Shown here in pieces: positions 3,258-6,175 of a DNA stretch of 6,199 nt. Below the pieces are notes generated by a model. The model saw nothing but the letters and a program-made list of their open reading frames with translations. It made no database searches and was not told the DNA's origin. Within the stretch, counting starts at the first letter, position 1; each line of letters starts with the position of its first letter. A program made the position numbers and the translations under genes. Origin of the DNA: an archaeon (GTDB lineage Archaea; Asgardarchaeota; Hermodarchaeia; Hermodarchaeales; Hermodarchaeaceae); the NCBI GenBank assembly GCA_016550425.1, contig JABXGS010000148.1, positions 1 to 6,199 on the forward strand, given 5' to 3'.

Positions 3258-3835
3258 GAACCGATGCTCGCATTCGTATTCCCAAAAGTCGTATCGCGGT
3301 AGTCATCGGACCGAGCGGAGCCATTAAACGACAACTGGAAAAAATGACCAATACGTCGGTCTCAATCGACAGCACCGATGGTTTAGTCACCGTTGAATCG
3401 GAGGAAACCTCCAAAGACCCCCTTGCGGTTTGGAAAGCCCGTGATATCGTACAAGCAATTGGGCGCGGATTCAGCCCCCAACGCGCTTTTGCCCTCTTAG
3501 ATGACGATGTGTATCTCCGCATCATCAATTTAGAAGAATTTGGTAACACTCCCAACCAGATTCGCCGCCTGAAAGGGCGAGTTATCGGTCAAGGCGGAAA
3601 GACACGACGCAACATCGAAGAACTCACCGATACCTATGTCGCCATCATGGGCAACACCATTTGCATCATTGGCGAAGTTGAAAACCAGCAAATAGCAGTT
3701 AACGCGATTGTCCGTCTTCTACGGGGTGCTGAACACTCCACAGTCAACCGATACCTCAATACTCAACGCCGGCAAATGAAAAAACGACGAGCACTGGAAC
3801 TATGGCAACCTTTAGGCCCTGATGCAACCGACTAA
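3254..3835 (+). CDS. KH-domain rRNA-processing protein, Dim2/Pno1-Krr1 family
   Basis: 193 aa with two KH domains. KH1 spans about residues 6-70 with its GxxG loop as GPSG (19-22). KH2 spans about 82-160 with GQGG (112-115) preceded by KGRVI. A basic tail (RRQMKKRRA, about 172-180) could contact RNA. In eukaryotes Dim2/Pno1 binds near the 3' end of 18S rRNA and holds the pre-40S site; the archaeal protein is thought to act similarly near the 16S 3' end, and this is inferred here. The ATG lies within the RIO1 stop (ATGA), so translation is probably coupled. Length and two-domain structure match the archaeal family. No signal peptide or membrane segment is seen, so it should be cytosolic. Confidence 0.92.
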   Translation: MRTDARIRIPKSRIAVVIGPSGAIKRQLEKMTNTSVSIDSTDGLVTVESEETSKDPLAVWKARDIVQAIGRGFSPQRAFALLDDDVYLRIINLEEFGNTPNQIRRLKGRVIGQGGKTRRNIEELTDTYVAIMGNTICIIGEVENQQIAVNAIVRLLRGAEHSTVNRYLNTQRRQMKKRRALELWQPLGPDATD

Positions 3836-3920: not shown

Positions 3921-4029
3921 GCCGAGGTGGCTCAGCCGGGTTAGAGCGGGAGCCCATACATTCTAGATGAAGTATGGTCCGATGCTGTTAACCTCTAGGT
4001 CAGCGGTTCGAATCCGCTCCTCGGCGCCA
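3921..4029 (+). tRNA. tRNA-Asn (anticodon GTT), intron-containing, CCA encoded
   Basis: The acceptor GCCGAGG (3921-3927) pairs with CCTCGGC (4019-4025); G73 is followed by an encoded CCA (4027-4029). The D stem is GCTC/GAGC and the T arm is AGCGG-TTCGAAT-CCGCT (4002-4018). After removal of a 31-nt intron the anticodon stem reads GGAGG/CCTCT (one G-T pair) around loop CTGTTAA, with anticodon GTT at 3987-3989. The mature length is 75 nt plus CCA. It decodes AAC and AAT. A pyrimidine-rich, T-rich stretch follows at once. Confidence 0.95.
3953..3983 (+). other. tRNA-Asn intron at position 30/31 with a full BHB motif
   Basis: Without this segment the anticodon stem closes; with it the stem cannot form. 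The intron contains a 6-bp hairpin, CCATAC (3954-3959) with GTATGG (3971-3976). Next to it, exon CGGG (3947-3950) pairs with intron TCCG (3978-3981, read with its neighbour), flanked by the 3-nt bulges AGC and ATG. Cutting each bulge after its second base removes exactly these 31 nt. This is the known geometry for the archaeal splicing endonuclease. The position lies inside the anticodon stem rather than at the canonical 37/38. Confidence 0.88.
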
Positions 4030-4046
4030 CTCTTCTCTTTCTTTTA
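4030..4046 (+). terminator. T-rich tract after tRNA-Asn, probable terminator
   Basis: CTCTTCTCTTTCTTTTA follows the CCA of tRNA-Asn without a hairpin. Oligo-T tracts of this kind stop archaeal RNA polymerase. It also covers the end of the convergent 148-aa gene, whose stop codon is at 4044-4046. Confidence 0.4.
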
Positions 4047-4490
4047 CCCAAACATAGCATGCCGCTCAGGGAAGCGTTTCAAACTCATCGATCGCACACA
4101 CGATTCGAGTTCGCGATCCAGTGCTTCTTGACGGTCCGACATAACCGTGCGTAACTGGGAGGTACTCGAATCTGAGTAACGTTGGATGCCTTCCGCCACC
4201 ACTAGCCCCTTCCGTTGAGGCGCCGCAATCTGAAATAAAAACGGTTTCCCTTCTTGCATGATCTGATTATGGAGTCCCTCATCGACTCGACGATGAGTGG
4301 TACCGACGCCAATCATCTCAAAGGGATTTACTGGTTCGGTTTTCATCTGCCACAACCGATCCCGATGCAACACAAAGGTATCATACAACCCATGATCCGC
4401 TGCACCGGATAACACGCGCCAGCCCCGACTATCCTTGTCAAAGCGTTTCTTCATCTCCATAAGCACATCGCCAATGGGCTGAACCGTCAC
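4044..4490 (-). CDS. Hypothetical protein, 148 aa, no recognised family
   Basis: I do not recognise this protein. The start is GTG at 4490-4488, chosen because a strong SD (GAGGAGGTGG, 4510-4501) lies about 11 nt upstream and no in-frame ATG or GTG occurs between them. The sequence is soluble-looking, with no signal peptide or membrane helix. An N-terminal helical segment (about 5-18, IGDVLMEMKKRF) precedes a region rich in aromatic residues and turns (about 22-60, including GWRVLSGAADHGLYD). A beta-like stretch FLFQIAAPQRKGLVVAEG lies at about 83-100, and a charged helical tail with RQEALDRELESC at about 120-131. It converges on tRNA-Asn. On its own strand it lies just downstream of the tRNA-Leu relic, so insertion of the element may have changed its promoter. 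Strong SD and clean composition favour a real gene. Confidence 0.65.
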   Translation of the reverse strand: MTVQPIGDVLMEMKKRFDKDSRGWRVLSGAADHGLYDTFVLHRDRLWQMKTEPVNPFEMIGVGTTHRRVDEGLHNQIMQEGKPFLFQIAAPQRKGLVVAEGIQRYSDSSTSQLRTVMSDRQEALDRELESCVRSMSLKRFPERHAMFG

Positions 4491-4557: not shown

Positions 4558-4585
4558 TGGTGCGGGAGCTGGGAATTTCCACCGT
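4558..4585. repeat. Direct repeat, copy 1 (tRNA-Leu 3' end)
   Basis: These 28 bp are identical to 5953-5980 and in the same orientation, 1,395 bp apart. They cover CCA, the 3' acceptor strand, the 3' T-stem strand and the 3' part of the T-loop intron. The pair brackets the TnpB unit like attachment sites. Confidence 0.9.
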
Positions 4586-4638
4586 CTCAGTTAATTCCGA
4601 TACGGTTTTTGAACCCAGGAACGCGACAGGAGCCTAAA
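4558..4638 (-). pseudogene. Relic of a second tRNA-Leu: anticodon loop to CCA, with T-loop intron
   Basis: Read on the minus strand, the segment runs from an anticodon-loop-like TTTAGGC through a shortened variable region and T stem CTGGG, a 33-nt T-loop intron (4607-4575), CCCAG, the 3' acceptor CTCCCGC, A73 and CCA (4560-4558). It aligns with the intact tRNA-Leu(TAG) at 5953-6072: 14 of 18 bases match from the anticodon loop to the variable region, 14 bp are identical around GAACCCAGGAACGC, and the last 28 bp are identical. No matching 5' half exists upstream. The long variable arm has lost 6 nt (GCGTAGGCG to GCG). It cannot give a normal tRNA by itself. It may be a gene cut by the adjacent TnpB element, or a captured tRNA 3' half used as an attachment site. 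Confidence 0.8.
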
Positions 4639-4780
4639 CTGTTGTCCGAAACCTATCCAGCAGATTCCAAAGAACCTTTAGTGTTCGGTTCCTGCTTCAT
4701 CGATGGGCACTGACCTCGAAGAGGTCTGCAACCTCCCACCTCTAGACAGGCGTTTTCTGTCTCCGCCCAACCAGCGGCGA
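4620..4780 (-). ncRNA. Putative omega-RNA (reRNA) at the 3' end of tnpB
   Basis: TnpB proteins use an RNA made from the 3' end of their gene and the right end of the element; its last 15-20 nt come from flanking DNA and serve as guide. Here the region has a perfect 6-bp hairpin, GACCTC-TTC-GAGGTC (4726-4712), inside the last codons. A second stem has AGGAACC pairing with GGTTCTT (with one G-T pair) around 4694-4672. The downstream flank, and so the guide, is tRNA-Leu anticodon-loop and variable-region sequence. Ends are estimated from the family, not seen. Confidence 0.4.
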
Positions 4781-5864
4781 CCAAATTAATGGCAGCATTC
4801 AAATCTCGATTCAATTCTAGCCCACAGACTTCACAACGAAAATATCTGGTGTATAATGAAAGTTCCTTCTTTGTAAACCCACAACTTGAACATCGTTTCG
4901 AAGATGGAAAGAAGCGCGGTGCGACTATAAGCTCTGATCCATACCATTTTGTTTTATATTCGAGCTGTCTTCGAAACTCGAAGAAGCCGACATCAGTAAT
5001 GGCCTTACTAAGACTTCTATTCTTTATCAATCCTTTAACACAAAGATCTTCAATCATAATTTGACTGTGGTTTTTAGCCAAATATGAAGTGATTTTGTGT
5101 AAAACATCTTTTCGAATATTACTGATACGCCAATGTAATTTTGCTAGGCGTATAACAGCTTTCCTCCGATTTCGAGATCCTCTGCTTTTGCGAGAAACTT
5201 GGCGAGATAATTTCTTGAGTTTCCGAAGTTTTGAAGCTAATGCCCGAGGATTTTCATATGCAATTCCATTAGATAGAGTTGCTAGTGAATGAATACCGAG
5301 GTCAACACCAATTTTCGGACCAAGGACAGGAGAAGGATTTACCCTCTCTTGTTTAACACAAATACTAACAAACCAACGGTCTGCTTTTCTTGAAACTGTT
5401 GCATTGAGAATACGACCAGAGATGGCAGGGATTTCTTTTAGACGGATTTTTCCTAATCTTGGCAGTTGAATAACTTTACCAATGACTTTGATGGTCCCCT
5501 CTAACCTGAAACTATCATTGACCCCCTTTTTCTTGAATTTCGGAAACCCAATGCGTGTTCTATTTTTGAGACCCCTTCGAAAATTATGAAAAGCTTTTTC
5601 AAGATCTTGAAGTGCTGCCTGTGGTGCGCATTTTGAAACCTCATACATCCACGGAAATTTAGATAATTTAAGTTGATTTAGTTCCTTATGCTGTTCAATA
5701 GAATTCGTGAAACGTTCTTTCCCCTTTTTCGTTTCATATCTGCGAATTCTTTCGACTAATCCCCAGTTGTAGGCAAATCTTGCACATCCAGCATGTTTCG
5801 CCATATGCGTACGTTGTCGATTATTTGGATCTAGCTCATAACGATAAGCCTGATAAACCAACAT
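4653..5864 (-). CDS. tnpB: TnpB, RNA-guided RuvC-type endonuclease of a transposon
   Basis: 403 aa from ATG 5864-5862. The frame is open back to 6029, but that stretch runs through tRNA-Leu. The start was chosen because LVYQAYRYELDPNNRQR matches the usual TnpB N-terminus. The RuvC acidic residues are intact: D188 (VDLGI), E272 (IEDL) and D354 (NRDLNAAINL). The zinc ribbon has CSSC (325/328) and CEVC (344/347). A lysine/arginine-rich region lies at about 210-240. TnpB cuts DNA at sites matching the omega-RNA guide next to a short motif (TAM), which helps keep the element after excision. The C-terminal SMKQEPN segment is typical, and its DNA overlaps the putative omega-RNA. There is no obvious SD; transcription may come from the tRNA genes upstream or an internal promoter. 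All key residues are present, so it is probably active. Confidence 0.93.
   Translation of the reverse strand: MLVYQAYRYELDPNNRQRTHMAKHAGCARFAYNWGLVERIRRYETKKGKERFTNSIEQHKELNQLKLSKFPWMYEVSKCAPQAALQDLEKAFHNFRRGLKNRTRIGFPKFKKKGVNDSFRLEGTIKVIGKVIQLPRLGKIRLKEIPAISGRILNATVSRKADRWFVSICVKQERVNPSPVLGPKIGVDLGIHSLATLSNGIAYENPRALASKLRKLKKLSRQVSRKSRGSRNRRKAVIRLAKLHWRISNIRKDVLHKITSYLAKNHSQIMIEDLCVKGLIKNRSLSKAITDVGFFEFRRQLEYKTKWYGSELIVAPRFFPSSKRCSSCGFTKKELSLYTRYFRCEVCGLELNRDLNAAINLVAAGWAETENACLEVGGCRPLRGQCPSMKQEPNTKGSLESAG
4712..4726 (-). other. Hairpin within the tnpB 3' end
   Basis: A perfect 6-bp inverted repeat, GACCTC/GAGGTC, with a 3-nt loop, flanked by GCA/TGC that could extend it with a small bulge. 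The position, just before the SMKQEPN codons, is where omega-RNA stems of this family lie. Confidence 0.55.
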
Positions 5865-5908
5865 CAGTAGAAGCCTACACCAATCTCTAGATGCTATATT
5901 TGTAAGCA

Positions 5909-5926
5909 CTGTTATTAACACAACAG
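5909..5926 (-). other. Hairpin in the left non-coding part of the tnpB element
   Basis: CTGTT and AACAG form a 5-bp stem with an 8-nt loop, 45 nt before the tnpB start and 27 nt after the tRNA-Leu CCA. It could be the left-end subterminal hairpin that IS605-type elements use. The alternative is a processing or termination structure downstream of the tRNA. Confidence 0.35.
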
Positions 5927-5952
5927 AGACTTCAGGAAAAGTAAATGAGAAA

Positions 5953-5980
5953 TGGTGCGGGAGCTGGGAATTTCCACCGT
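5953..5980. repeat. Direct repeat, copy 2 (tRNA-Leu 3' end)
   Basis: Identical over 28 bp to 4558-4585; here it is the 3' end of the intact tRNA-Leu(TAG). Similarity breaks in the middle of the T-loop intron and resumes for 14 bp at 6005-6018. Confidence 0.9.
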
Positions 5981-6001
5981 TCAAATCGTGTTTAAACAGT
6001 T
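5970..6001 (-). other. Intron at position 59/60 in the T loop of tRNA-Leu
   Basis: Read on the minus strand, the T stem is followed by TTCG, a bulge AAA, a stem ACTGTT/AACGGT, then GGAA and a bulge ATT. TTC pairs with GAA, leaving one G-G mismatch in the 4-bp central helix, so the BHB is slightly relaxed. Cutting both bulges after the second base removes 32 nt and leaves the canonical T loop TTCGAAT. T-loop introns are known in some archaea, chiefly Thermoproteales, and are rare elsewhere. Confidence 0.8.
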
Positions 6002-6096
6002 TTCGAACCCAGGAACGCCTACGCGACAAGGTCCTAAGCCTTGCATCTTTGACCAGGCTTGACTACTCCCGCAGGGATTTGTGGTTGTAGTGGGAG

Positions 6097-6175
6097 TGGT
6101 GCCCTGACCGGGATTTGAACCCGGGTCCACGGGGCGAAAGCCCATGATGATTGACCTGGCTACACTATCAGGGCA
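6097..6175 (-). tRNA. tRNA-Glu (anticodon TTC), CCA encoded
   Basis: TGCCCTG (6175-6169) pairs with CAGGGCA (6106-6100), and CCA is encoded at 6099-6097. The D region AGTGTAGCCAGGTCAATCAT is the classic archaeal tRNA-Glu form. The anticodon stem ATGGG/CCCGT encloses CTTTCGC, anticodon TTC. The T arm is CCGGG-TTCAAAT-CCCGG. The gene is 76 nt plus CCA with no intron. It is the first gene of the minus-strand tRNA pair; its promoter would lie beyond the right edge, as only 24 nt remain in the window. Confidence 0.95.

Follow-up and report, generated by a model that had tools for sequence, protein, structure and literature searches.

A TnpB element without tnpA, probably inserted in a Hermodarchaeota tRNA-Leu(UAG) gene copy, with a conserved tRNA 3′ half at its predicted guide position

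Introduction

The flank that a TnpB element records as its guide is usually arbitrary. When viruses or plasmids of archaea integrate at tRNA genes, the insert comes to lie between an intact tRNA and a displaced 3′ half. Homing endonuclease elements such as the Allomyces atp6 element carry a copy of the 3′ end of their target gene, so that the nuclease gene has the intact gene on one side and this spare end on the other. The locus described here lies in a 6,199-nucleotide stretch of Hermodarchaeota DNA (hereafter, the window), in which a tnpB gene is bracketed by an intact tRNA-Leu(UAG) gene and a tRNA-Leu 3′ half. Unlike archaeal tRNA-gene integration, the window has no integrase and the boundary is set by the right end of the TnpB element; unlike elements of the Allomyces atp6 type, its nuclease is predicted to be RNA-guided and the spare end itself would be the guide.

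In ISDra2, an IS200/IS605 element of Deinococcus radiodurans, the reRNA comprises the 3′ end of tnpB and the right end of the element, with the last ~16 nt derived from flanking DNA, and a motif stands 5′ of the guide target (excerpt of PMC8612924). Only the proximal 12 nt of the guide are used by Dra2 TnpB (excerpt of PMC10278001). The window resembles ISDra2 in its homologous nuclease, in the predicted origin of its reRNA and in the predicted position of the motif. However, the motif is TTGAT for ISDra2 and AGGG for the window family, tnpA is lacking in the window, the window flank is a conserved tRNA gene half, and an intact tRNA-Leu near the left end replaces the other half of the target.

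Gene drive by TnpB of plasmid insertion sequences, in which the occupied allele gains when TnpB cuts unoccupied sites, has been shown experimentally on plasmids (excerpt of PMC11870625); the process proposed here is similar, but is inferred and concerns a chromosomal tRNA gene. IStrons, which combine a group I intron with an insertion sequence, are harmless at the gene they occupy (excerpt of PMC4227781). The window element would likewise be harmless, but by virtue of an intact second tRNA copy, and Rfam gave no group I intron match in the window. For archaea, the excerpted text of PMC12558985 describes circular omegaRNAs, without a splicing-type motif. Searches of open-licence papers turned up no TnpB element whose guide derives from a tRNA.

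At the present locus a conserved tRNA gene takes the place of such an arbitrary flank, and the predicted guide has been retained while neutral sites are near saturation. If active, the element would amount to RNA-guided homing in nature at a tRNA gene and would illustrate how an element of this kind can persist at an important target; att-like tRNA duplications of archaea could then be explained without an integrase. For an Asgard TnpB family, we now propose a target motif and both ends at testable precision.

Organization of the Locus

The window contig belongs to Hermodarchaeota (Asgard) and carries genes for NMD3, eIF1A, EMG1, RIO1 and a KH-domain protein. On the minus strand the order is tRNA-Glu, intact tRNA-Leu(UAG), a 34-bp gap, the TnpB element, the tRNA-Leu 3′ half, and a gene of 148 aa. 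The tRNA-Glu(UUC) gene (6097–6174) is the native upstream neighbour of tRNA-Leu and is present in relatives too. The intact tRNA-Leu(UAG) gene (5953–6072) has an encoded CCA and a T-loop intron of ~32 nt (about 5971–6002). As it stands, with the intron in place, it is missed by both ARAGORN and Rfam; with the intron omitted, ARAGORN calls tRNA-Leu(tag) at 5/5 loci (the window and its counterparts L001–L004). The gap between the CCA end and the left end of the element spans 5919–5952, the element 4639–5918 (minus strand), and tnpB, a single open frame of 403 codons (403 aa), 4653–5864 (minus strand). The conserved tRNA-Leu 3′ half (4558–4638, minus strand, 81 nt) has its own T-loop intron hairpin and a 6-nt deletion in the variable arm. 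The 148-aa gene (4044–4490, minus strand), which has no Pfam hit, directly follows tRNA-Leu in element-free relatives.

A sequence-only reading of the window had noticed a 28-bp direct repeat of the tRNA-Leu 3′ end around a unit said to hold only tnpB. The repeat is real: 28 bp are identical between 4558–4585 and 5953–5980, inside a repeat family of 34 nt at 94%, and a further 23 nt match at 91% (4602–4624 and 5996–6018). The full repeat is the 81-nt tRNA 3′ half, and the copies differ by the 6-nt variable-arm deletion and by the T-loop intron, of which each copy has a separate one. No integrase is present among the seven window proteins scanned, as that reading had noted, and tnpB is present, but the unit also contains a predicted omegaRNA scaffold (4781–4639). 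A split or trans-spliced tRNA, whose 3′ half would start at the intron position after the anticodon, is not supported: the 3′ half begins at loop base 32 and includes the anticodon, and an intact tRNA is present.

On the plus strand, 3921–4029 is probably a tRNA-Asn(GUU) gene with a non-canonical intron, as read by eye; ARAGORN reports it as 'tRNA-???'.

Empty Sites in Relatives

A contig search with the KH protein yielded 11 loci, among which the four from Hermodarchaeota (L001–L004) were compared with the window. L001, from a separate assembly and with a KH protein 90% identical to that of the window, has the element and the 3′ half at the matching place and in the same layout, which makes an assembly artefact unlikely. 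In L002, L003 and L004, the three close element-free relatives, a single complete tRNA-Leu is followed directly by the 148-aa gene, indicating that something integrated in the window and L001. The comparison thus falls on the side of integration rather than disruption of a tandem pair, the two outcomes that the earlier reading had set against each other; neither two tandem tRNA-Leu copies nor a truncated copy without tnpB occurs in any of these three relatives. The class is represented by eight genomes in this set; the 148-aa gene occurs in four of them, and tRNA-Leu(UAG) is single-copy in each of seven, G005 having no match.

The occupied site is known as DNA in two lineages, those of the window and L001. 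A single insertion event common to both is the simplest history, because both 3′ halves carry the identical 6-nt deletion. The lower dS of tnpB than of host genes (see below) makes a later exchange between the two lineages possible.

In L004, a tRNA-Glu gene at 3580–3690 has an extra insert, a probable intron, that is absent from the window and L001–L003, and ARAGORN misses the gene there.

TnpB Protein

The tnpB product has hits to OrfB_IS605, Cas12f1-like_TNB and HTH_OrfB_IS605 and is homologous to solved TnpB structures, scoring 213 bits against PDB 8bf8, which we take to be ISDra2 TnpB. All of 11/11 aligned TnpBs share the Asp/Glu/Asp residues of the RuvC motif, which are catalytic in ISDra2 TnpB, as well as four zinc-ribbon cysteines. 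The window protein, in which the RuvC and zinc-ribbon motifs are thus retained, is 81% identical to that of L001. The element is best read as a tnpA-less TnpB type of the IS200/IS605 superfamily, for which RNA-guided DNA cleavage is predicted. A TnpB on another contig (P0002), listed as 100% identical to the window TnpB, differs from it at two residues, and three orthologous TnpBs from metagenomes (P0003, P0005 and P0006) are 79–82% identical. In genome G001, a 1.7-Mb assembly for which completeness is not given, the only full-length TnpB of this clade sits at the tRNA-Leu site.

Right End, omegaRNA Scaffold and Guide Position

A right-end search in four genomes (G001–G004) gave 25 matches, four of which were tRNA-Leu sequence only. 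The remaining 21 loci, namely the L001 site (as L012) and 20 others, all align with the window to a common terminus. Among the 20 other copies, the terminus is exactly CAACGG in 13, GAACGG in two, and more divergent in five (L016, L022, L025, L027, L029), L022 and L027 being one insertion in two genomes. In the window the element terminates in CAACAG at 4639, and 4638 is already the first base of the tRNA half, with zero gap. Beyond the terminus lies the tRNA half in the window and L001, and other flanks in the 20 other copies. One unrelated copy (L015) has a flank that also starts with TTTAGG, six bases in common with the guide, which is taken as coincidence.

The predicted omegaRNA (reRNA) scaffold of 143 nt (4639–4781, minus strand), which ends in GACAACAG at 4639, was aligned with the 21 loci and 13 other sequences; its 5′ end was placed from sequence by a conserved GTCGCC start. 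With the right end at 4639 and the ISDra2 rule of ~16 flank-derived nt (excerpt of PMC8612924), the predicted guide position (4623–4638, minus strand, 16 nt) adjoins the right end and reads tRNA-Leu(UAG) from anticodon-loop base 32.

Over the first 12 bases, compared by eye, the putative guide has one mismatch to the element-free genes of L002 and L003 and two to those of L004 and of genomes G006–G008; G006–G008 are classed as element-free because a search with the right end joined to the 3′ half had no hit in them. To the resident tRNA it has two mismatches in L001 and four in the window, so that current self-targeting is doubtful. At the start of this segment, TTTAGG is found in 6/6 tRNAs from genomes without the element and CTTAGG in 2/2 carriers, so that T32 is replaced by C at position 1 of the guide. 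That the resident tRNA has escaped its own guide would be a possible but weak reading of this pattern, which is suggestive only.

A pattern combining the right end with the tRNA 3′ half matches in 8/225 genomes. One is the known case, G001; inspected by eye, the matches in the seven others bear no resemblance to tRNA halves, and ARAGORN calls no complete tRNA in them. L050 and L055 have no recognisable scaffold. Exact guide matches occur in two stretches of viral contigs; these were rejected as tRNA targets, as ARAGORN finds no tRNA at either locus. Acceptor-like pairing between a GTGGGAG stretch of the scaffold and the tRNA half was also rejected: it is present in the fold of the window (z −3.05) but absent from that of L001 (z −0.55), and the GTGGGAG stretch is conserved family-wide. 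This leaves the tRNA half with no 5′ acceptor partner.

Target Motif and Left End

The scaffold also occurs in other genomes of the phylum, in many copies without the rest of tnpB; those in G222 are ~282 bp long. Left ends were sought at 37 places, of which 19 gave one and 18 had no readable left end. The tetranucleotide preceding the left end is AGGG in 11/19 and [A/G]GGG in 14/19, the other five being GAGG (twice), AAGG, AGGA and CGGT; as a control, AGGG occurs once in 171 upstream positions. GGGG precedes the left end of L136, which was read separately. The motif, read mainly from G222, G211 and G208, is a putative one for the window TnpB. Within Hermodarchaeota, L015 and L019 have a common left end that starts behind AGGG, and their left ends align to each other; since the search pattern for Hermodarchaeota left ends itself required GG, lone hits (e.g., L014) were discounted and only these two were used, no left end having been fixed for the other copies. 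The left end of the window element is inferred from TTAATAACAG, which is common to L015 in the same register. An empty-site comparison between L024 and L016 gave no readable motif, as the two have diverged too far.

In five of the eight tRNA-Leu(UAG) genes read (L001, L003, G006, G007, G008), the guide position is immediately preceded by AGGG. The sequence is GTGC-AGGG-TTTAGG in L003, G006, G007 and G008 and AGGG-CTTAGG in L001; the motif place is AAGG in the window and L004, and TGGA in L002. As AGGG precedes the guide position in these five genes, the 3′ half starts where a canonical insertion would leave it.

This register bears on the interpretation of the repeat as attL/attR, a resemblance noted in the sequence-only reading. 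On such a view, a virus or plasmid was integrated at tRNA-Leu by a tyrosine integrase (with the tRNA 3′ half as attP) and lost all but tnpB. An intact tRNA with a displaced 3′ half at the native place is indeed the att layout, and empty sites exist. However, no integrase was found among the proteins scanned, and the half abuts the TnpB right end without a gap, at a position that follows the TnpB motif in unoccupied genes; for an att site, such agreement would be fortuitous. The half does start in the anticodon loop, as had been noted in favour of a tRNA-integrase crossover, but the right end and the AGGG register explain that start without a tRNA integrase. The exon states also run contrary to expectation. 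In L001, the intact tRNA has a host-like 3′ exon (GCTG, as in L002–L004) and the displaced copy differs (GTGG), the reverse of what att exchange predicts. A displaced att half would moreover be expected to decay, and we consider such an origin very unlikely. In the window, GTGG is found in both tRNA-Leu copies and the resident 3′ exon agrees with that of the 3′ halves (GGTGG), a hint that gene conversion took place in the window lineage.

The left flank of the occupied loci is non-canonical, that is, rearranged or mutated: the motif slot reads TGTG in the window and TAAG in L001, rather than AGGG. No significant remnant of a tRNA 5′ half was found in 5863–5952, which includes the gap, or in its L001 counterpart (best p 0.067 of eight comparisons, a weak test at this divergence). 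The gap is 34 bp in the window, equal to the length of the tRNA 5′ part there, and 40 bp in L001; the equality is treated as coincidence.

Conservation of the 3′ Half

Between the window and L001, the 3′ half is identical at 71/81 columns over its whole length and at 58/59 exon-like positions, the latter count having been chosen after the alignment was seen. Pairs of intact tRNA-Leu genes from five genomes are identical at 53 to 61 of 65 positions. Fourfold sites are identical at 28/86 in the KH gene, 23/59 in the 148-aa gene and 73/142 in tnpB (33–51%), and intergenic spacers are 58–69% identical. For tnpB, dN is 0.116, dS 0.97 and dN/dS 0.12, while dS of two host genes is ~1.6. The middle of the intron in the 3′ half is only 56% identical, yet a hairpin fold is found in both. 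Copying from the resident tRNA was rejected as the cause of this conservation, as the two halves share states that are absent in the residents (the TTTAGGCTCC start and the 6-nt deletion).

As judged by these comparisons, the 3′ half is not decaying, and 'relic', the name it was first given, is misleading. Conservation runs past the ~16-nt guide into the T-stem, the intron hairpin and the acceptor strand, and a second reason beyond the guide is therefore needed, perhaps transcript processing.

The same figures weigh on a simpler view, in which a TnpB element struck one of two tandem tRNA-Leu copies and the 3′ half has since been an unused relic. This view draws on the identical right-end and target-motif evidence, and the 34-bp gap may represent a 5′ half that is no longer recognisable, given the low power of the 5′-half test at this divergence. 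With only two occupied loci readable, it stays a rival. However, 58/59 exon-like identity against 33–51% at fourfold sites and 58–69% in spacers, retention of the intron hairpin despite a changed intron sequence, and the tandem copy seen in 0/3 relatives all speak against an unused relic, which we regard as improbable.

Proposed Mechanism

We consider it probable that a TnpB element without tnpA inserted at AGGG in the anticodon loop of tRNA-Leu(UAG), that its guide has been conserved together with TnpB, and that the element is active or domesticated. An element of the IS200/IS605 superfamily would have entered a tRNA-Leu(UAG) copy in the ancestor of the window and L001 lineages. Insertion at AGGG would make the 3′ half downstream of the right end the native target flank, of which the initial ~16 nt would serve as the guide of the TnpB omegaRNA. 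An intact tRNA-Leu alongside would keep the host alive; this copy may have arisen by tandem duplication before the element inserted, or the locus may later have recombined with an unoccupied copy. The sequence-only reading had offered insertion into the second of two tRNA-Leu genes with loss of the 5′ half as one alternative, which comes close to this account, although neither a tandem ancestor nor a significant 5′ remnant was found.

Conservation of the guide and the rest of the half together with TnpB suggests that the element is active or domesticated, and selection for homing or for a domesticated role may maintain the guide. In the homing case, transcription of tnpB would yield an omegaRNA with a tRNA-Leu guide, element-free tRNA-Leu(UAG) alleles would be cut, and repair would proceed from the occupied allele. 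It is also conceivable, though doubtful, that the tRNA gene is a permanent homing target, with the whole 3′ half as a working part: its start would act as the guide, the T-arm intron hairpin as a signal for 3′ processing of the omegaRNA, and the resident tRNA would have drifted beyond reach of the guide.

Other omegaRNA Copies in the Phylum

Matches to the omegaRNA right end number 39 in G222, 31 in G211, 23 in G208, eight in G199 and seven in G076, and a large part of them stand alone without tnpB (L063–L160). The right-end pattern was matched in 32/60 fetched loci, with flanks that are all different by eye. Besides the one full clade TnpB at tRNA-Leu, G001 has five right-end copies (L016, L021, L025, L028 and L034, the last partial), and TATA-like boxes precede the scaffold in the four that were aligned upstream (L034 excluded). 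These standalone copies may act in trans with the TnpB at the tRNA-Leu site. Downstream of the standalone copy at L016, the minus strand at ~1375–1210 holds a tRNA-Leu gene (CAG by eye) with two probable introns, one in the D-loop and one in the T-loop.
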